Of a stretch of 64,000 nucleotides of DNA, positions 9,462 to 24,749 are shown piece after piece. The stretch comes from Pseudomonadota bacterium (GTDB taxonomy: Bacteria > Myxococcota_A > UBA796 > GCA-2862545). Within the stretch, counting starts at the first letter, position 1; each line of letters starts with the position of its first letter. The stretch covers positions 1 to 64,000 of the forward strand of contig JAGSGY010000020.1 of the NCBI GenBank assembly GCA_023954855.1, written 5' to 3'. The notes under the pieces are model-generated. The model was not told the DNA's origin. It ran no database searches and was given only the letters and a program-made list of their open reading frames with translations. The translations under genes and the position numbers were made by a program.

Positions 9462-10624
9462 TCGCGCTGCTGCTGAGCCTCGCCTGGTCGCAAGAGTGCC
9501 CCGAGCTGCTCACCCAGGACCTGAACTGCAACCAGATCGACGTCGCCGCCGAAGGTCTGACCGACATCCTCGACCCCGAGTGCCTCGAGAGCGACCTCGA
9601 CGCCTACTACGACAGCACCAGCTTCGGCTGCAGCTACCCCATCGTGGCTCTGGGCCTCGACACCGACGGCGACGGCTTCGGCTCGGGGCAGATCACGCTG
9701 TACGACGAGAGCGGCTTCTCGACCGGCAGCTTCATGCTGTCCTGCGACAACTGCCCGGACCTGGCCAACGCCGACCAGGCCGACGACGACTGCGACGATG
9801 TCGGACAGCTCTGCGACAACTGCCCGGCCACCCCGAACACCGACCAGGCCGACCCCGACGGCGACGACCTCGGCAGCGCGTGCGACAACTGCCCCGACCG
9901 CTGGAACCCGACCCAGCTCGACGGCGACGACGACGGGCATGGCAACCCCTGCGACAACTGCCCGGACGTGCCGAATCCCTTCCAAGAAGACGCGGATGGC
10001 GACGGGCAGGGCGATGCCTGTGACAGCTGCCCACTGGTGCCCGACATCGGTGCCGACACCGATGGCGACGGTGTGGTCGACTCGTGCGACAACTGCCCGT
10101 CCACGCCGAACCCCGACCAGGCCGACCAAGACGCCGACGAGCTCGGCGACGCGTGCGACAACTGCCCAACTCGCTTCAACCCCGGCCAGGCCAACAGCGA
10201 CGGCGACCGCATCGGCGATGTCTGCGATGTCTGTCCGCACCGCACCGACCAGCCGCAGAACGACAGCGATGGCGACGGTGTCGGCGATGACTGCGACAGC
10301 TGCCCCGACCACGCCGATCCGTTGCAGATCGACAGCGACGGGGATGAGGTCAACGACGTGTGCGACGTGTGCCCCGATGTGGTCGAGACCACCCAGGACA
10401 GCGACCTAGACGGCGTTCCCGACGACTGCGACAACTGCCCCTTCATGGAGAATCCGGACCGAGCTGACCGCGATGGCGACGGCATCGGCGACGTCTGCGA
10501 CCTCGAGTTCTCGGTCGAAGGCGGTGCGCGGACCCTGTGTCAGACGAGTGCAGGCGGGGGGGCGTGGATGTGGCTCGGTCTCGTCGCCTTCAGCATGCGC
10601 CGACGGGCAAGTACTCGACGCTGA
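9458..10624 (+). CDS. thrombospondin type 3 repeat protein with MYXO-CTERM-like tail
   Basis: 388 residues. A short signal peptide is followed by a Cys-containing N-terminal domain. From about residue 96 to 353 there are eleven repeats of roughly 23 residues starting CDNCP, CDSCP or CDVCP and carrying DxDxDG calcium loops. This is the thrombospondin type 3 pattern. The last 30 residues (CQTSAGGGAW, hydrophobic MWLGLVAFSM, then RRRASTRR) fit the MYXO-CTERM sorting pattern of Cys, hydrophobic helix and Arg-rich end. It is probably a calcium-stiffened surface protein. It is coupled to the OmpA-like gene by an ATGA overlap. Its 3' end overlaps the convergent VWA lipoprotein gene by 35 bases. Confidence 0.85.
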   Translation: MIALLLSLAWSQECPELLTQDLNCNQIDVAAEGLTDILDPECLESDLDAYYDSTSFGCSYPIVALGLDTDGDGFGSGQITLYDESGFSTGSFMLSCDNCPDLANADQADDDCDDVGQLCDNCPATPNTDQADPDGDDLGSACDNCPDRWNPTQLDGDDDGHGNPCDNCPDVPNPFQEDADGDGQGDACDSCPLVPDIGADTDGDGVVDSCDNCPSTPNPDQADQDADELGDACDNCPTRFNPGQANSDGDRIGDVCDVCPHRTDQPQNDSDGDGVGDDCDSCPDHADPLQIDSDGDEVNDVCDVCPDVVETTQDSDLDGVPDDCDNCPFMENPDRADRDGDGIGDVCDLEFSVEGGARTLCQTSAGGGAWMWLGLVAFSMRRRASTRR

Positions 10625-16832: not shown

Positions 16833-19487
16833 CTAGGCTCTCGAACGCGCGATGCCGAGCCCGATGGCACCCGCGAAGACGACAGCCAGCGGCCACCACG
16901 GAATCGTAGGTGCCGTCCCACCCGGCTTCAGCACCACATCGGGATTGCCAATCAGCACAATGCCGGCCCACCCCTCGGGCGCGTGCCCGGCGTCGTGCAT
17001 CAGACTCTGCGCAGACTGTAGGGCTTGGCCGAGGCTCTGGCCCTGGTCCACAAAGCCATAGAAGGCCACGGCGAACCCTCGGGCGTGGTCATCGCGAAGC
17101 GGCCAGAGCGTGGCAAGGACCGCTGACGCACCGGCCTGCTGAAAGGCGGGGGCAAGACCCTCGGGCCCCTGGGCGCCGACCACGCCACCGCCCGCACTCT
17201 GGCAGGCCGACAGCACCACCACCGCGCCGTTCAGGTCCTCGGCGACAATCTCTCCGGTGGACAGCCAGCCGTCGGTCCCCTCGCCCGGGGCGAGTAGCAG
17301 ACCGGCACTTCCGGGGTCGTGGCTCGGAACCACCGCATGGGCCGCGAAGTGCACGAGCCGGGGGTTGGTAGGCAACCAGCCCGTCTCGGAGGCCTCGGCC
17401 CCGACGAAGATCTGCGCATCGAGACCTCGCAGGGCCTCGACCTCAGCCGCCGCCTGGTCAAGCCGAGGCGGCATCTTGTCGACCCGCAACAGCACGGCGT
17501 CTTCGCCAAACGTAGGGTCGGCGAATGCGACGACAGCGCCATCCGCGGCAGGCTCGACTTCGGACCACCGCGCCCACAGCGATACCGACGGGGCCTGCAC
17601 GACCTGGGCTGCCGCACCGAGGGGTGGCGACTCCGCCGTCGCCCGCAAGGCCGCAAACGGCAGGCCATAGAGGGGTCCCTCGGGAATGACGGTCAGCTTC
17701 GACGGCGGCCCATCGGGAAAGGCGGGGCCGAGAAGCTCATCGTAGAGCCGGGCTCCCGCAACGCCGCTCACACCGTGCATTCCGGCGAATAGACGCACGC
17801 GCTCATCGAGCTGGTTTAGCGGCGGTAGCGGGTAGGAGCGCACCTCGTCGGCGCGAATGACCATCGCCCACGGCTCCGCAAACTCCGCGGACTGCACGGG
17901 AAGCTGGAAGGTGACCACGGCTTCGTCGGGACCGAGTCTGGCTTGGATGGCCGACAGCTCGACGGGCTTGGTTCGCCGAAGGGCCGCATACTCGGGCGCA
18001 GAGGTGTTGAGCTCATCGACGATGTGGGCGACCTCTTCGCGCGCTGCCTGCAGGGCCGCAGCGGCCTCGGCCAGGTCGGCCTCCGTCGCGTAGCCCAGGT
18101 CCTCTTCGGCCCCTTCAAGGCGGGTCCGCGCCTTCTGGTAGCGCTCGCGCAGCGCCACATCGTCGATCAGCACCTCGGAGACGTCTGAACGGTCCAGGGC
18201 GCTGCGAACGGCCTGGGCGCGGGTCGACTCCAAGATCTCGTGGGCGGCCGCCAAGTCACCGTCCTCGGCGACGACCCAGGCCAGGTCGTGAAAGTCGGCA
18301 TCCCAGTCCGCTCGCCAGGAGCGTCCGTTGTCGACGCCCAGGTCGAAGATCTCCGTCGCAACCGAGCGGAACGCCTCGGCCTCTTTCGCCCGCTCTACGC
18401 GGTTGCCGAGCCGGTGGTGGGCCACGAAGCGCGCCTTTGCGGCACGGGACTCGAGATTGAGGGTGGCGTCGAGCGCACCCAGCGATTCCGCGAGGGCCAG
18501 TCCTTCTTCCGGATCCCACTCCGAGAGCTTGGCGGCCCACGCCGCCTCGAGTCCGGGCAGGTAGTACGCCTCTTCGAGACTCACGCCGACCTTGCGGGCG
18601 CGCTCGACAAAGGCCCTCGCGGTCGCCTCATCATCGCTCACCAAGGCCGCCCGATACAGCGTGTCGACCTCAGTCCACGGGTTGTCGCCCTTGCGGGCCA
18701 GATCAGCGACGGCGAGCGCCTCCTCCACGAAGTCTCTTCCGTCGAGCACGCGCTCCTGCAGGTGAGGACGGGCCGACAGGTACTGCAGGATGCCGGTTCG
18801 CACCATCGACTCGGCATAGGCATCGTCGTTCTCTTGGAGCAGCGTGAGCAGCTTCGGATAGGCGGTGAGCCAGACGTCGTCGCGCTGCAGCTCCGCCGCG
18901 ACCTGAATCATCACGTGCAGTGCCACCAGGCGGGTCTGGTAGTCATCCTCGGGGGTGAGCTGCTCATGCAGCGCCTGGGCCCGCGACAGGGTCAGATCGA
19001 GGTCCCGCTTGTGTTGCCACATCGTGCGTAGGCGCTGGGACAAGACGATGCGCTGAAGGGAGTCATCCCCAGAGAGAGTCGCGACATCGACCGCGCGGTC
19101 GAGCTGCTCGCGCACATCCTCGACCCGGCGATTACGACCTGCAAGCTGCGTGAGGTTCAGCCGCGCAAAGACCTCCCCCTTCGGGATCTCCGCCTCGCGA
19201 AAGGCATCGGCCGCACGCTCGAGCTCCGTCCAGGCGCCATCGACCTCTCCGTGGTCCATTCGCAGGTTGCCGAGCGTCAGCCGCGACCACGCCCAATCGG
19301 GTCGCGCATCCACCACGGTCGCCATGAAGGCGATGGCCCCGTCATAGTCCCCACTTCGGCGTGCATACATGTACACGCATCGACCCGGATCACGCCCCTC
19401 GGCCTCGGGCCCGAACAGGTCGGCGCAGGGCTCCGGTGGCGCGGGTTGGGCAAAAGCGAGGCTCGCGAGCAAAGCGAGAAGCGTCAT
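16833..19487 (-). CDS. TPR-CHAT caspase-like protein with C-terminal membrane anchor
   Basis: 884 residues. A signal-like hydrophobic N-terminus is followed by about 500 residues of helical TPR-like repeats. A coiled region (residues about 450-510) comes next. The CHAT domain follows, with the catalytic pair visible as LVHFAAHA (His717) and VLSACQS (Cys762), then QGPEGLAPAFQQAGASAVLATLWPL in two adjacent blocks. A membrane helix (PWWPLAVVFAGAIGLGIA) and RSRA end the protein. CHAT domains are clan CD cysteine proteases related to separase and caspases. It is the third gene of an operon with an ECF sigma factor and an anti-sigma-like protein, overlapping the latter by ATGA, so it is a candidate regulator or protease of that pair. 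Confidence 0.85.
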   Translation of the reverse strand: MTLLALLASLAFAQPAPPEPCADLFGPEAEGRDPGRCVYMYARRSGDYDGAIAFMATVVDARPDWAWSRLTLGNLRMDHGEVDGAWTELERAADAFREAEIPKGEVFARLNLTQLAGRNRRVEDVREQLDRAVDVATLSGDDSLQRIVLSQRLRTMWQHKRDLDLTLSRAQALHEQLTPEDDYQTRLVALHVMIQVAAELQRDDVWLTAYPKLLTLLQENDDAYAESMVRTGILQYLSARPHLQERVLDGRDFVEEALAVADLARKGDNPWTEVDTLYRAALVSDDEATARAFVERARKVGVSLEEAYYLPGLEAAWAAKLSEWDPEEGLALAESLGALDATLNLESRAAKARFVAHHRLGNRVERAKEAEAFRSVATEIFDLGVDNGRSWRADWDADFHDLAWVVAEDGDLAAAHEILESTRAQAVRSALDRSDVSEVLIDDVALRERYQKARTRLEGAEEDLGYATEADLAEAAAALQAAREEVAHIVDELNTSAPEYAALRRTKPVELSAIQARLGPDEAVVTFQLPVQSAEFAEPWAMVIRADEVRSYPLPPLNQLDERVRLFAGMHGVSGVAGARLYDELLGPAFPDGPPSKLTVIPEGPLYGLPFAALRATAESPPLGAAAQVVQAPSVSLWARWSEVEPAADGAVVAFADPTFGEDAVLLRVDKMPPRLDQAAAEVEALRGLDAQIFVGAEASETGWLPTNPRLVHFAAHAVVPSHDPGSAGLLLAPGEGTDGWLSTGEIVAEDLNGAVVVLSACQSAGGGVVGAQGPEGLAPAFQQAGASAVLATLWPLRDDHARGFAVAFYGFVDQGQSLGQALQSAQSLMHDAGHAPEGWAGIVLIGNPDVVLKPGGTAPTIPWWPLAVVFAGAIGLGIARSRA

Positions 19488-20221
19488 TGAATCCGGAGCA
19501 CAGAGGTGCGGGAGATGCGTCGGGTGCCGTCAGGACCCAAGCCCTCGACTCGCCAGAGCAGCAGCGCGCCCTCTGGGAGGCTCGCGATGGCTTCGGCGGG
19601 CACGACGACATGGTCCCCGTCGATACCCTGCGCGGTGTGCAGAGTGTTGAGCGCATCGTCGCTCACGAGCACGTCGTAGGTCCAGCCCGGCTCGCTCGAC
19701 CACTCGATGCGAACCGCCTCGCGAGCGAGCACGGCGTTCTCGGGGGTGAGGAGCTCAATGCGGTCTACACCATCGCGGTACACCGGCTCATCTGTCGGTC
19801 CCGGCGCGCCAGACATCACCGCCAGTAATGCCGCTGCTGCCAGTGCAAATCCACCGGCCGCCGCCCATCCACGCGAGCGCATCGAACCCAGTGAAACCCC
19901 ATTGTCGTCGCTCGCCTCGAGCGGCGAGGAGCGATCGAGCGCCTCGGACGGCGAGGACTTGTCGAGCGCCCGCATCGGGCTGGACTTGTCGAGCAGCAAG
20001 AGCTCCGCCGTGTCTGCCGGCATCTCGCGCTGCACCTCGACCGCCACGGCCCAGTCCGCCGCACAGCTGGAACAACCCGACACGTGGTCGACGAGCGAGC
20101 GAACACTGCCGGGGGCGAGCTCGCCGTGGGCGGCCTCCCAGATGGCTTCCGCAGGTGGACAGTCCCCTGCCGCCTGGCCCCCGCGCACCCAGGCCTCGAA
20201 CACGTCGCTGCCATCACTCAT
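19484..20221 (-). CDS. zinc-finger membrane protein, probable anti-sigma factor
   Basis: 245 residues. The N-terminal domain has the zinc-binding anti-sigma pattern (Cys21, then His46-x3-Cys50-x2-Cys53 in HVSGCSSC). A linker with three tandem nine-residue units follows (DKSSPMRAL, DKSSPSEAL, DRSSPLEAS). One membrane helix at about residues 117-137 and an extracytoplasmic beta domain of about 100 residues complete it (WTYDVLVSDD, LLWRVEGLGPDG, Fn3-like). ZAS-type anti-sigma factors hold their ECF sigma at the membrane until they are degraded. It overlaps both neighbours by four bases, which supports a stoichiometric complex with the upstream sigma factor. Confidence 0.8.
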   Translation of the reverse strand: MSDGSDVFEAWVRGGQAAGDCPPAEAIWEAAHGELAPGSVRSLVDHVSGCSSCAADWAVAVEVQREMPADTAELLLLDKSSPMRALDKSSPSEALDRSSPLEASDDNGVSLGSMRSRGWAAAGGFALAAAALLAVMSGAPGPTDEPVYRDGVDRIELLTPENAVLAREAVRIEWSSEPGWTYDVLVSDDALNTLHTAQGIDGDHVVVPAEAIASLPEGALLLWRVEGLGPDGTRRISRTSVLRIQ

Positions 20222-20730
20222 GGGGTCACCCCTTTCTTGGTGAGGCAGTCACGAAGGTCCGCGAGTCCGCGGTAGACATGGTTCTCGGCCTTCTTCGGCG
20301 TCCAACCCAGCAGCTTGGCCGTCTCTGGAACCGTGTGACCCACCAGGTGCAGGGTCAGTGCGCGACGTCGATTCTCGACCAGTCGACCCAGACAGTCCTG
20401 AATCTCCACCGCGACGTGCTGCGCATGCGTGCGCCCCTCGGGGTTGGCGACCGGAGCCTGTTCGATGGGTTCTGAGACGACGTCTTCCAGCGCATCCTCT
20501 CTTCGGCGTCGGTGACGCCTGAGTTCGTCGATGGTGGCCGACCAAGCGACCTTCCATAAGTACGACGGTTGAAGTGAGCCTTTCCCCTCACTCGAAAGTC
20601 GCATCACCTTGATCATCGCCTCCTGGACGATGTCATCAGCCCGGTCCGCGAGCTCGCGGGGACAACGCGCACGGACAGCCCGCGTCAAGACACGCTGTAC
20701 GTCCTGCAGATCCTCGTGCGAAAGCCCCAC
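20218..20730 (-). CDS. ECF-type RNA polymerase sigma factor
   Basis: 170 residues, the size of an ECF (group 4) sigma factor. Region 2 is visible as RADDIVQEAMIKVMR and YLWKVAWSATIDELRRHRR. Region 4 is GHTVPETAKLLGWTPKKAENHVYRGLADLR, here in two adjacent blocks of a helix-turn-helix. It directs RNA polymerase to a specific promoter set. The start is GTG at 20730, and no strong ribosome binding site is seen. It is the promoter-proximal gene of the sigma, anti-sigma, CHAT operon. I could not identify its target promoter motif by eye. Confidence 0.9.
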   Translation of the reverse strand: MGLSHEDLQDVQRVLTRAVRARCPRELADRADDIVQEAMIKVMRLSSEGKGSLQPSYLWKVAWSATIDELRRHRRRREDALEDVVSEPIEQAPVANPEGRTHAQHVAVEIQDCLGRLVENRRRALTLHLVGHTVPETAKLLGWTPKKAENHVYRGLADLRDCLTKKGVTP

Positions 20731-20765: not shown

Positions 20766-22223
20766 CTAGTAGGTGGCGCGGGTCGCGGTGTAGCCGATGT
20801 TGAAGTTGATGAGACCGCCGAGATCGACGTACTTGGGCTGGTTCGACCAAGCGAGCGTCATCGTGCGGGCACCGGTGATGAACACCTCGTCGTGGGCGTC
20901 ACCGTCGTAGTCCGCGGTCACCACGCGCATGCCAATCTGCTCACCGCCGGTGGCGCCGACAATCGCGGTACCGTTGTGTCCACTGTGGCGCCCAGCCGAC
21001 AGCTGCGGGAAGGCGTAGACCGCACCGTCCTCGTCATTGAAGTGGCTGCCATAGGGCGCGCCGACCAGCAGCTCATTGTCGCCGTCGCCGTCGATGTCGC
21101 CGCCGGCGAGCGAGGTGCCGAAGCCGTCGCCGCTGCCCGTCTGAATCAGCGCGTAATAGCCGCTGGTCGAGGTCAGGCTTCCGCGGGTGCCACCGTCCCA
21201 GACGATGGCGGCGCTGTAGCGAGCGTAGGTGAGTGCGATGTCGGCGAGGCCGTCATTCGAGAGGTCGAAGTCGCCCGCCACCGCGTCGGGACGGCCATAG
21301 CGGCCGAAGTCGATGTGAAGAGGCAACTCCGCAGCATCGATGCGGCCATCGGAGCGTCGACCGCCGGCCAACACAGCCATGCCCTCGGCACCCTCGAGGA
21401 GGAGGTCACCGACCCCGTCGCCGTCGAAGTCGCCGGCACGGTGGATTGCCTGGCCAGCGCCGCGAATGGCGAAGTCCGCGTCGCCAACCTCGAGGTCACC
21501 CCGGAGGGGGCCGTACAGCACGACCGCCAGGTCCTCACCGGGAACGGCTGCGATCAGGTCGTCGATGCCATCATCGTCGAGGTCGAGCACCACAAAGCTG
21601 GTGCCGAAGTCGGTGCCGCGCTCGCCGCGAATCCACACGTCGGCCTCGTCCGTCGACACACGCTCTTCGGGGTTGGCGTACACCGCGATGACATCAGCGC
21701 CGGGAAGGCCCTGCACGAAGTTGGCGCCTAGGCTGCGACCGCCGGTGAGGTTGCCCGAGGCCTGCGCACCCGCCTCGGCGTCGAGGCCACTGGTGTGGGC
21801 GTAGACCGTGGTTGACGCGAGCGAAGAGACCGGCGCGCGGCCGAGGTCGCGAATGGCCGGGGCCTCGAGCAGGTAGGCGGTGGGCTGTCCTGCCGTCGCG
21901 TACTGCGGGAAGCTGGTCCACGGACCGTTCGGGTCGTCGCCGCCGCCGGTGTCGTCGTCGAGGGGGTTGGGCATGTCTACCGCACCACCCTTGCCCGTCA
22001 TCACGAACTTGGTGGTCGTCGAGTAGCTGCGCTTGAAGCTGGTGCTCGCCGTCCGGCACCCCTCATCCACAAGGCCGTCGCGGTCGTTGTCGATCAGGTC
22101 ACCACAGATCTCGCCAGCACGGACTTCCCCGCGGGCGTCGGCAGAAAGCGCCGACTCCGCGAGGTCAACTTCATTCACACAAGCAACAGAGAGCAGGGCA
22201 AGGGGTAGGGCAAGACGAGTCAT
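20766..22223 (-). CDS. FG-GAP (integrin-alpha-like) repeat lipoprotein
   Basis: 485 residues from the ATG at 22223, which has GGAGG about six bases upstream and a lipoprotein signal (LLSVAC, Cys16). A MopE-type motif (CGDLIDNDRDGLVDEGC) precedes a Ser/Thr-rich stretch. At least five FG-GAP repeats with calcium-type loops follow (LDLDDDGIDDL, AGDFDGDGVGDLL, GGDIDGDGDNELLVGAP, ADYDGDAHDEVF). These normally fold as a seven-bladed beta-propeller at the cell surface, used for adhesion. It lies 88 bases downstream of the kinase-FGE gene on the same strand and may be in its transcript. Confidence 0.85.
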   Translation of the reverse strand: MTRLALPLALLSVACVNEVDLAESALSADARGEVRAGEICGDLIDNDRDGLVDEGCRTASTSFKRSYSTTTKFVMTGKGGAVDMPNPLDDDTGGGDDPNGPWTSFPQYATAGQPTAYLLEAPAIRDLGRAPVSSLASTTVYAHTSGLDAEAGAQASGNLTGGRSLGANFVQGLPGADVIAVYANPEERVSTDEADVWIRGERGTDFGTSFVVLDLDDDGIDDLIAAVPGEDLAVVLYGPLRGDLEVGDADFAIRGAGQAIHRAGDFDGDGVGDLLLEGAEGMAVLAGGRRSDGRIDAAELPLHIDFGRYGRPDAVAGDFDLSNDGLADIALTYARYSAAIVWDGGTRGSLTSTSGYYALIQTGSGDGFGTSLAGGDIDGDGDNELLVGAPYGSHFNDEDGAVYAFPQLSAGRHSGHNGTAIVGATGGEQIGMRVVTADYDGDAHDEVFITGARTMTLAWSNQPKYVDLGGLINFNIGYTATRATY

Positions 22224-22310
22224 GAAAACCTCCGGGCGTGAGCCGCGTTCGAAGGTGCAACGCTCGCCGGATGGGATTCCCCTCACTCAATCCTAGAAAA
22301 AACCAAACCC

Positions 22311-24749
22311 TCAGGACGCGACGCTCGAAACCACCGTTCGAAAACCCAATTGCGCCATCACACCTGCGGAGGAACTCGTCGTATCAATCCGGCAGAACCA
22401 ACTGTTTCGCTCCCATCCGCCCCCCCTCACCCGGCGGTGGCCTCGGGCTTCCACAGCCGACGTATCGGCTAGCCCCCCCTGCACACGAGCGAACTCGGTG
22501 CTCGTGTCCATCAGCCAGCTGAAGACATTGCCGGCCACATCGCGCATGCCATAGGGCGAGACATCCTGCGGATGCGTGCCCACATCGCACGGACCCGGCG
22601 CCTTCACCGCCCGTTCCCGCGTCCAAGACCACTCCGCACATCGCTGGGCGCCCCAGGGATAGATCCGCGCATCCACGCCCCGGGCCGCCTTCTCCCACTC
22701 GAGCTCGAACGGAAGGCGGACCTCGCGGCCCAGGCGTCCTCCTAGCCAAGCGCAGTACGCCATCGCCGAGGCCCAGGTCACACAGACCACCGGCATCGTC
22801 GGGCGCCAGTCGCTTCCGTGCGCGTCTTTGCCAAGGCGAAAGTGACCGCCTTCGCTGCGCGGGTAGATCGGCTTTCCGCCCATTTTCGGAGCGTGTCTCT
22901 CGGCGAGATCGACGTCTCCGCGGTCAACGAGGTCGTTGAGAAAGCCGACGTATTCACCGTTGGTGACCGAGTCTCGCCCGATGGCAAACGCATCGACCCA
23001 GACTCGCTGGCGGGGCACTGGATTCGCGAGCGCTTCCTGGTCGGTGCCGGCCTCGTACCAGCCGGCGGGCACATAGACCATGCCCTCGGGAACGCTGTTC
23101 GGAAGCTCGACCACGGTCGCTATTTGCTCGCCAGGACGCACACCATCCCAGTGCTGGCCACGACCAATCTGCACCGGGTAGCGCACCACCTCGCGACCCT
23201 TGGCGCGAATCTCGAGCAGGTAGCTGCCCATCGCCACCGGCACTTCATCCAGCGGTGTCGTTCCGAGCGTGCGCTCCAGCTCGGGCACCAGGCGACGGCG
23301 GCGCTCGGTGTAGCGGAGAAGTGTGACCTCAGCGGGCACCTCCGTCGTCAGCGACAGTGTGCCAGTCCCCTCGAGATAGGCGGTGTGCTGGCCCCTGTCG
23401 TAAGCACGAATCCAGTCTTCGAGCGCTCGAGCGGTCGCTGCATCCCCCTTGGACTCGGCGAGCATGTGCGAGCGGACGTAGTGGGTCGCGAGTCGGTCGT
23501 AAGCTTCGGGCAGCCCGGGAACGAAGCTCAAGCTCGACCGCAGCAGACGAAGACGCTCAGCTTCGGAGCGCTCCGCCTGATCTTCAAGGCGGCGAGCCTC
23601 GTCTTGCATCGTCCAGGGTCCCCACCGCTGCGCCTCGGGTGCGTCGGCGGGTAGCGCGCGGAGCTGCGCATCGGCGGCACTCTGCAGCACCTCGGCCTCG
23701 CGACGTGAGCGACGAATGCCCGCGCGCAGGGCGTCGGCTTCCGCAATCAGGTCGAGGGCCCGCTCCTTGTTCTTGGCGCCATCGAGCCAGTCGAAGAGGC
23801 GGCGGGCCAAGGCGGTGGCGTCACTGGGACGGTCGTCTACCTCGGGGGCGAGCGCGGCCATCGCCAGATCGCTTAGCTCCTCGGCGACGGGAAGCGCCGA
23901 GCGTGTACCCGGGAGTCGGACTGCAGGCGCCATCGCCACCAGCGCCACCAGCGCACGACGTGACGGCGCTGCATACGGCGGGTCTCCGCAGAGCAGCTCG
24001 TAGAGCATGCCACCCAGCGCCCAGACGTCCGTGGCGGGACCAATCCGGTCGTGCTCGGCGCGGGCCTGCTCGGGAGCCATGTACGACGGGGTTCCCGCAA
24101 CCGCACCCGCCTGCGTCCGCAAGCTATCGCCGGTGCTTCGCAGCGAGTGCACGGCGTCGACGGGCGTCCACGCCTCGGTCATCACCCGCGCGAGCCCCCA
24201 GTCGAGCACCAGCACCTCACCGTGGTCTCCAAGCATCACATTGTCGGGCTTGAGGTCGCGGTGGACCACCCCGCGGTCGTGGGCGTAGCCGACCGCTTCC
24301 GCAACCCGCGCCAGGGCATCGATCAGGCGGCGAAGGCTCCAGCCATCCGAGGTCTGCTCCTGGCCGACCCGGGCGGCGGCGTGCACCTGAGCGATGCGGT
24401 CACCGAGGGTCGTCCCTCGCACTTCCTTCATGGTGAACCACAGACGACCATCGGGAAGCAGGCCCAGGTCGTGCACGGGAACAATGCCCGGGTGCTGCAG
24501 CTGGGCTGCGACCTGCGCCTCTTCACGGAAGCGTGCGATGGCGGCGGCCGAGCTCCCCGCCTTCACCACCTTCATGGCCACGACACGGGAGAGCTCGCGG
24601 TCCCGCACGCGGCGCACCTCACCCATGCCGCCGGCTCCGAGGGGGCCGAGATCTTCGTAGCGTTCGGGCAGGTCCAGCGCTGAGTCCACTTCGAGAGCGG
24701 CTTCGTCGGGCTCGTCTGTCCAGGTGTCGCGAGTGGGGCTCATGTACAT
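22311..24749 (-). CDS. Ser/Thr protein kinase fused to a formylglycine-enzyme-like domain
   Basis: 812 residues. The kinase domain spans about residues 30-320: glycine loop GAGGMGEV (38-45), Lys60, HRDLKPDN (163-170), DWG in place of DFG (183-185) and APEQ. A helical linker of about 200 residues follows. The C-terminal 250 residues form an FGE-sulfatase/SUMF1-type domain (VYVPAGWYEAG, LPFELEWEKAARG, YPWG, GNVFSW, RGGGWE). No membrane helix is evident. FGE-like domains fused to kinases usually serve as binding or effector modules rather than sulfatase activators. ATGs at 24749 and 24743 are both possible. The kinase catalytic residues look intact apart from DWG. Confidence 0.88.
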   Translation of the reverse strand: MYMSPTRDTWTDEPDEAALEVDSALDLPERYEDLGPLGAGGMGEVRRVRDRELSRVVAMKVVKAGSSAAAIARFREEAQVAAQLQHPGIVPVHDLGLLPDGRLWFTMKEVRGTTLGDRIAQVHAAARVGQEQTSDGWSLRRLIDALARVAEAVGYAHDRGVVHRDLKPDNVMLGDHGEVLVLDWGLARVMTEAWTPVDAVHSLRSTGDSLRTQAGAVAGTPSYMAPEQARAEHDRIGPATDVWALGGMLYELLCGDPPYAAPSRRALVALVAMAPAVRLPGTRSALPVAEELSDLAMAALAPEVDDRPSDATALARRLFDWLDGAKNKERALDLIAEADALRAGIRRSRREAEVLQSAADAQLRALPADAPEAQRWGPWTMQDEARRLEDQAERSEAERLRLLRSSLSFVPGLPEAYDRLATHYVRSHMLAESKGDAATARALEDWIRAYDRGQHTAYLEGTGTLSLTTEVPAEVTLLRYTERRRRLVPELERTLGTTPLDEVPVAMGSYLLEIRAKGREVVRYPVQIGRGQHWDGVRPGEQIATVVELPNSVPEGMVYVPAGWYEAGTDQEALANPVPRQRVWVDAFAIGRDSVTNGEYVGFLNDLVDRGDVDLAERHAPKMGGKPIYPRSEGGHFRLGKDAHGSDWRPTMPVVCVTWASAMAYCAWLGGRLGREVRLPFELEWEKAARGVDARIYPWGAQRCAEWSWTRERAVKAPGPCDVGTHPQDVSPYGMRDVAGNVFSWLMDTSTEFARVQGGLADTSAVEARGHRRVRGGGWERNSWFCRIDTTSSSAGVMAQLGFRTVVSSVAS

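Follow-up and report, generated by a model that had tools for sequence, protein, structure and literature searches.

In the DegS/RseP-RseA pathway, a single-pass anti-sigma factor is paired with a membrane-tethered periplasmic site-1 protease, the PDZ serine protease DegS, which is encoded at a separate locus, and with an M50 site-2 protease. The transmembrane anti-sigma factor DdvA, in which a CHAT domain and the anti-sigma part are united in one chain, controls a CRISPR-Cas operon, and its C-terminal part is said to have been proposed to sense a signal. Its partner in Myxococcus xanthus, the extracytoplasmic function (ECF) sigma factor DdvS, is active once DdvA has been inactivated, by a trigger that is unknown (PMC4374960). 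In Craspase (type III-E Cas7-11/gRAMP, Csx29, Csx30 and CASP-sigma), a TPR-CHAT His-Cys protease is tied to an ECF sigma factor via an inhibitor: Csx29 cleaves Csx30, the inhibitor of the ECF-like sigma factor, within a flexible loop, and in the portions of the published account drawn upon here the system is RNA-guided, with no transmembrane or exported part described (PMC10028731). For the ECF54 group, described as having no anti-sigma factor, proteins with CHAT, subtilase and carboxypeptidase domains are conserved nearby, and a review has proposed proteolytic control (PMC8999054). Here we analyze a three-gene operon in a stretch of 64,000 nt (hereafter the window) of contig JAGSGY010000020.1 (GCA_023954855.1), from a metagenome-assembled genome (MAG, 97% complete) of an uncultured, myxobacterium-like bacterium. 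It encodes an ECF sigma factor, a membrane anti-sigma factor and a separate TPR-CHAT protein, and control of the anti-sigma factor by the CHAT protein is the best reading of this arrangement.

Gene content of the operon and its nearest described counterparts

All three genes lie on the minus strand in the order sigma, anti-sigma, CHAT, and the four-base overlaps reported in a first-pass annotation of this DNA are present as ATGA at both junctions. The first gene (20218..20730, minus strand) starts with GTG and encodes 170 aa matching Sigma70_r2 (6.8e-8) and Sigma70_r4_2 (3.2e-9), both above the Pfam cut-off, as well as TIGR02937 (2e-16, 60.1 bits vs. a cut-off of 42.9); with regions 2 and 4 only, the product is an ECF (group 4) sigma factor. 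The product of the second gene (19484..20221, minus strand, 245 aa) combines a ZAS zinc-finger domain, a single transmembrane helix at 120-138 and an outer domain modelled as an FN3/Ig-like fold, with a predicted local distance difference test score (pLDDT) above 90 over residues 171-240. Its zf-HC2 match (E 0.0011, 19.4 bits) falls under the Pfam cut-off of 22.2; the H46xxxC50xxC53 motif is nevertheless intact, and this H-x3-C-x2-C zinc motif places the protein among the ZAS-type (class I) anti-sigma factors. The earlier identification of the two products as an ECF sigma factor and a zinc-finger protein with one helix therefore holds. The third gene (16833..19487, minus strand) encodes an 884-aa protein with a signal-like segment, TPRs (TPR_19, 1.7e-4), a CHAT domain (Pfam, 1.8e-43, 149.5 bits vs. 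a cut-off of 24) and a C-terminal helix as predicted anchor. The catalytic pair was found exactly where it had been annotated, as H717 in VHFAAHA and C762 in LSACQSA, and the product is a predicted periplasmic cysteine protease of the caspase/separase-like kind.

An AlphaFold2 model of the CHAT protein (pLDDT 81, predicted template-modelling score 0.79) had the transmembrane anti-sigma factor DdvA (8rot, 8rw5) as its first fold match, followed by Csx29/Craspase and separase, and DdvA was also its best sequence match in the PDB (E 4e-15 to 8rot over profile positions 674-829). Since DdvA leads both comparisons among solved structures, coupling of a CHAT domain to an anti-sigma factor is already known, within a single chain. 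The operon shares with DdvS/DdvA the ECF sigma factor, the transmembrane anti-sigma factor and a homologous CHAT domain. In contrast to DdvA, the anti-sigma factor and the CHAT protein are separate genes in 9/9 operons (see below), the latter predicted to be exported with its own C-terminal anchor, and an FN3-like outer domain stands where DdvA has CHAT; the operon thus does not encode a DdvA-type anti-sigma factor, which is a single polypeptide. The anti-sigma profile gave no sequence match to 8rot, and no DdvA-like fusion was seen among the loci examined.

The first-pass annotation had likened the operon to Craspase. Both pair a TPR-CHAT His-Cys protein with an ECF sigma factor and its inhibitor, and Csx29 ranks near the top in the fold comparison, whereas the compartment is predicted to be periplasmic and the nearest solved structure is DdvA; moreover, the anti-sigma factor is of ZAS type where Craspase has Csx30. 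The annotation's statement that no CRISPR part is present agrees with our finding of no Cas1 match in the genome (Cas7-11 was not searched for) and no CRISPR-like array between 10 and 30 kb of the window. Membership in the Craspase group was rejected on the lack of Cas1 and the different, predicted compartment. ECF54 was likewise set aside, as an anti-sigma gene is present in 9/9 operons. The points of difference from these systems are a CHAT protease encoded separately and predicted to be exported, next to an anti-sigma factor of ZAS/FN3 type, and a wider set of triads with C14 caspases; a literature search covering few subscription papers returned no paper on either.

Conservation and reciprocal linkage of the three genes

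In a profile scan of the phylum (379 genomes, mostly MAGs, with two candidates scored per genome), CHAT proteins of the operon's family were found in 11 genomes, and full-length matches, at 456 bits or more, were set well apart from other CHAT proteins, at 202 bits or less. The three genes occurred together in 9/9 family loci with sequence on the sigma side (the window, L017, L018, L019, L049-L052 and L074), so that the grouping is conserved and no oddity of one strain; L021 and L075, truncated by contig ends, were left out of this count. Members span at least two classes with identities of 26-72%, and L017 keeps the set together in the rearranged order CHAT, sigma, anti-sigma. When the scan was reversed with the anti-sigma profile, all nine full-length homologues (>200 bits) adjoined an operon-type CHAT gene, the remainder being weak generic matches. 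A chance neighbourhood of three genes was rejected because the triad is kept across divergent genomes and the linkage of anti-sigma and CHAT is reciprocal. Further, the sigma proteins of the eight complete operons aligned are 33-72% identical, and the distance matrices of sigma, anti-sigma and CHAT correlate with r of 0.74-0.81, which points to parallel divergence. Though pairwise identity of the CHAT proteins drops to 27%, all nine sequences that cover position 717 have the His and all ten that cover position 762 have the Cys. The zinc motif is kept in 7/9 anti-sigma relatives; the two that have lost the zinc ligands (L018:7671-8420 and L074:4448-5134) retain the rest of the protein.

The idea that every CHAT gene adjoins a sigma factor was also rejected, as the sigma, anti-sigma, CHAT layout was present at 0/30 other CHAT loci inspected. 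Two loci deserve mention in this respect: at L023:1-4228 (genome G052), a different CHAT gene, of another family and in another order, immediately precedes genes for an ECF sigma factor and a FecR-like anti-sigma factor, and in L083 a sigma fragment stands ahead of a different CHAT system. In a genome of the same genus as the window (G001), an orphan frame (L124:6333-6770) encodes only the transmembrane and FN3-like parts of the anti-sigma factor; sigma, zinc-finger and CHAT sequences are missing from its surroundings, and it is possibly the remnant of a lost operon. Relatives with names are MAGs, from lakes and elsewhere, labelled Myxococcales, Deltaproteobacteria or Proteobacteria. A scan of a genome collection with the single CHAT protein as query gave no relative, and with another query (A7) it gave five, apparently from genomes already in the set.

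Predicted topology and a candidate cut site

Three features of the CHAT protein overlooked by the first-pass annotation bear on its location. The N terminus forms a hydrophobic, signal-like segment (MTLLALLASLAFA-QPA); the Cys pair C21/C37, invariant in 9/9 rows covering the N-terminal part, fits an oxidising compartment; and the protein ends in a transmembrane helix (862-880) followed by RSRA, an arrangement shared by 10/10 rows with an intact C terminus, in which the basic tail behind the helix carries a net charge of +2 to +4. In the anti-sigma factors, the flank preceding the transmembrane helix is more positive than that following it in 8/9 sequences and equal in the ninth. Read by the positive-inside rule, the charges around the helices predict a periplasmic location for the CHAT domain as well as for the anti-sigma factor's outer domain, and the signal-like N terminus, the Cys pair and the basic-tailed helix together suggest, short of certainty, a membrane-anchored CHAT protein facing the FN3-like domain. 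The annotation suggested that the CHAT protein might cut the anti-sigma factor and so release the sigma factor. A direct release in the cytosol is not supported, since a periplasmic CHAT domain would be able to cut solely the outer part of the anti-sigma factor, as a site-1 protease does, and a second, intramembrane step would be required. The predicted layout resembles that of DegS/RseP-RseA, and the genome contains an M50 site-2 protease gene (591-aa open frame, 197 bits) with a putative role in processing of the operon's anti-sigma factor; unlike DegS, the clan CD cysteine protease is here encoded together with the sigma factor.

Within 20 aa after the transmembrane helix, a hydrophobic residue followed by Arg and a small residue (A/D/G/S) occurs in 9/9 anti-sigma factors, compared with a mean of 1.1 and a maximum of 5 in shuffled sequences. 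The versions are VYRD, LYRA, PWRA, VYRS, VFRA (twice), PMRA (twice) and ALRG. In the window it is Tyr148-Arg149-Asp150 (codons at 19772..19780, minus strand), 10-12 residues outside the helix, and an Arg in P1 would suit a separase-like enzyme. As the motif was picked after inspection and the sequences are related, we take it as a prediction of the cut site and not as proof.

C14 caspases in the same operon position

The window genome carries five C14 caspase genes, four of which, preceded by an ECF sigma factor and a single-pass anti-sigma factor, show 4-bp overlaps and a signal-like N-terminal segment (L125:3860-6644; L131:4220-7175; L132:4079-7244, minus strand; L133:4723-7603). Altogether, of the 26 sigma genes located in the genome, five belong to triads of sigma, anti-sigma and clan CD protease. 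The same layout was present at 40 of 53 informative C14 loci of the class (sampled as one per genome plus two extra loci), where the sigma match stops 0.76-1.19 kb upstream, and at 6 of 38 loci beyond the class, which makes the C14 triads a lineage speciality and no general property of C14 genes. Catalytic His and Cys are present in 46/46 triad caspases, including a divergent subgroup (L131:5655-7175; L190; L195) in which YFSTHG...(L/F)A(T/S)CHSG replaces YYSGH...DACxSG.

Just outside the membrane, the C14-linked anti-sigma factors carry the motif (R)xKG: of 42 sequences, 34 contain KG (shuffle maximum 15) and 23 contain [RK]x[KR]G (shuffle maximum 7). Orthocaspases cleave after basic residues (PMC6426788). 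The motif was not found in the small sample of single-helix anti-sigma factors of the window genome that have no downstream clan CD protease. The C14 triads thus resemble the CHAT operon in gene order, overlaps, the single-pass anti-sigma factor, the His-Cys clan CD protease predicted to be exported and a basic juxtamembrane motif; they differ in the C14 fold vs. TPR-CHAT, in (R)xKG vs. hydrophobic-Arg-small, and in the outer domain, which in L125:4375-5118 is a weak DUF4384 match. Two unrelated proteases in the same position, both with intact dyads and with partners whose linker carries a basic site, are the strongest indirect argument for cleavage.

These data also bear on the annotation's suggestion of a free-standing version of the CRISPR-linked control. 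The operon does stand without Cas1, but the term understates the situation, given how often the class has triads built on unrelated secreted C14 caspases. The triad is genuine and conserved, and its occurrence is wider than had been stated.

Proposed site-1 cleavage and competing explanations

We propose that the operon may constitute a self-contained transmembrane signalling switch. The cytoplasmic ZAS domain of the anti-sigma factor would keep the sigma factor bound at the inner membrane, with the FN3-like domain exposed in the periplasm, and the TPR-CHAT protein, once exported, would be held in that membrane through its C-terminal helix. Upon sensing of an envelope signal by the TPR solenoid, the CHAT protease would cut the short segment of the anti-sigma factor that joins the membrane helix to the FN3-like domain, probably behind the conserved Arg149, and an RseP-like M50 site-2 protease would complete the cleavage and free the sigma factor. 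The model draws on the linkage, the parallel divergence, the invariant dyad, the same-side topology, the juxtamembrane motif, the recurrence with C14 caspases, the PDB neighbours and the M50 gene. In it, the gene content and order, their conservation, the reciprocal linkage and the intact catalytic residues are observed, the topology is predicted, and the cut, its site, the site-2 step, the signal and the regulon are inferred. A dedicated site-1 protease is the most likely role for the CHAT protein, with a probability of roughly one half, that is, about even odds against all the alternatives below combined. Several points weigh on the other side: the cleavage step is deduced from sequence; a protease that is simply co-regulated with its neighbours could show the same conserved pairing in an operon; N-terminal segments of several CHAT members have no basic residues, which is atypical of a Sec signal; the active-site loop (762-773) is modelled with low confidence; the juxtamembrane motifs were selected post hoc, in nine anti-sigma factors that share kinship; and we know of no report of proteolysis for DdvA, although it is an anti-sigma factor bearing a CHAT domain.

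The CHAT protein could instead be an output of the system: the sigma factor would activate the operon that encodes it, the protease, once secreted, would act on other envelope or foreign proteins, in defence, predation or cell death, and the anti-sigma factor would answer another signal. Sigma factors often drive their own operons, so membership in the operon fits this explanation on its own, as do the intact dyad and the predicted export. An output gene would not require, however, that the full-length anti-sigma factor be seen only beside an operon-type CHAT gene, and neither the union of the two functions in DdvA, nor the C14 caspases in the same position, nor the juxtamembrane motifs would be accounted for. 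Taken together, we regard this explanation as unlikely, if worth serious attention. We likewise doubt that the TPR-CHAT body is a non-cutting sensor or co-inhibitor which binds the FN3-like domain and signals by conformational change, as CHAT of DdvA may: the invariance of His and Cys in the CHAT family and in all 46 C14 counterparts is not expected of a pure scaffold, which should shed catalytic residues in some lineages, even though the nearest solved structure is a transmembrane anti-sigma factor with a CHAT domain and FN3 domains are binding modules. That the CHAT protease has its place in the pathway but cuts a third envelope protein, with a general site-1 protease cutting the anti-sigma factor, is very improbable, since no other gene is conserved beside the three at the loci viewed and direct recognition between co-encoded proteins is simpler, for all that further proteases are expected in the genome.

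With regard to the surroundings of the operon, a scan for a [GT]GAAC...GT promoter motif gave no result. A TTGAC element lies tens of bases 5' of the sigma start in L017, L019, L050, L051, L052 and L074 and is not obvious in the window; it may be either a sigma-A promoter or an autoregulatory promoter of the operon's own sigma factor. Upstream on the same strand, the window encodes a protein that joins a Ser/Thr kinase to an FGE-sulfatase-like domain (22311-24749, minus strand) and, between it and the operon, an FG-GAP protein (20766-22286), with a gap of only ~36 bp to the sigma gene. At 10054-10509, seven copies of a 45-nt repeat, spaced 66-69 nt, apparently encode acidic D-x-D-G-D-type repeats.

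Our findings suggest that caspase relatives serve bacteria in the sensing of extracellular signals, through a predicted cut in a sigma inhibitor. A broader proposition, which we put forward tentatively and with more doubt than belief, is that exported clan CD proteases, CHAT and C14 alike, form a whole class of dedicated, operon-encoded site-1 proteases that would sense envelope signals and cut membrane anti-sigma factors after a conserved basic residue, which would free the ECF sigma factors. In this class of bacteria this would be a main mode of ECF control, and for bacterial caspases a main task. The operon brings together a protease, its predicted substrate with a predicted cut site and a read-out in one small unit that can be reconstituted, and it bears on the roles of bacterial caspase relatives and on the site-1 proteases of many ECF systems. 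If the proposed mechanism is true, it would offer a testable mechanism for DdvA, the same role would have been reached by at least two unrelated proteases, and caspase-family proteolysis would be an ordinary means of bacterial signal transduction across the envelope, beyond defence and cell death.

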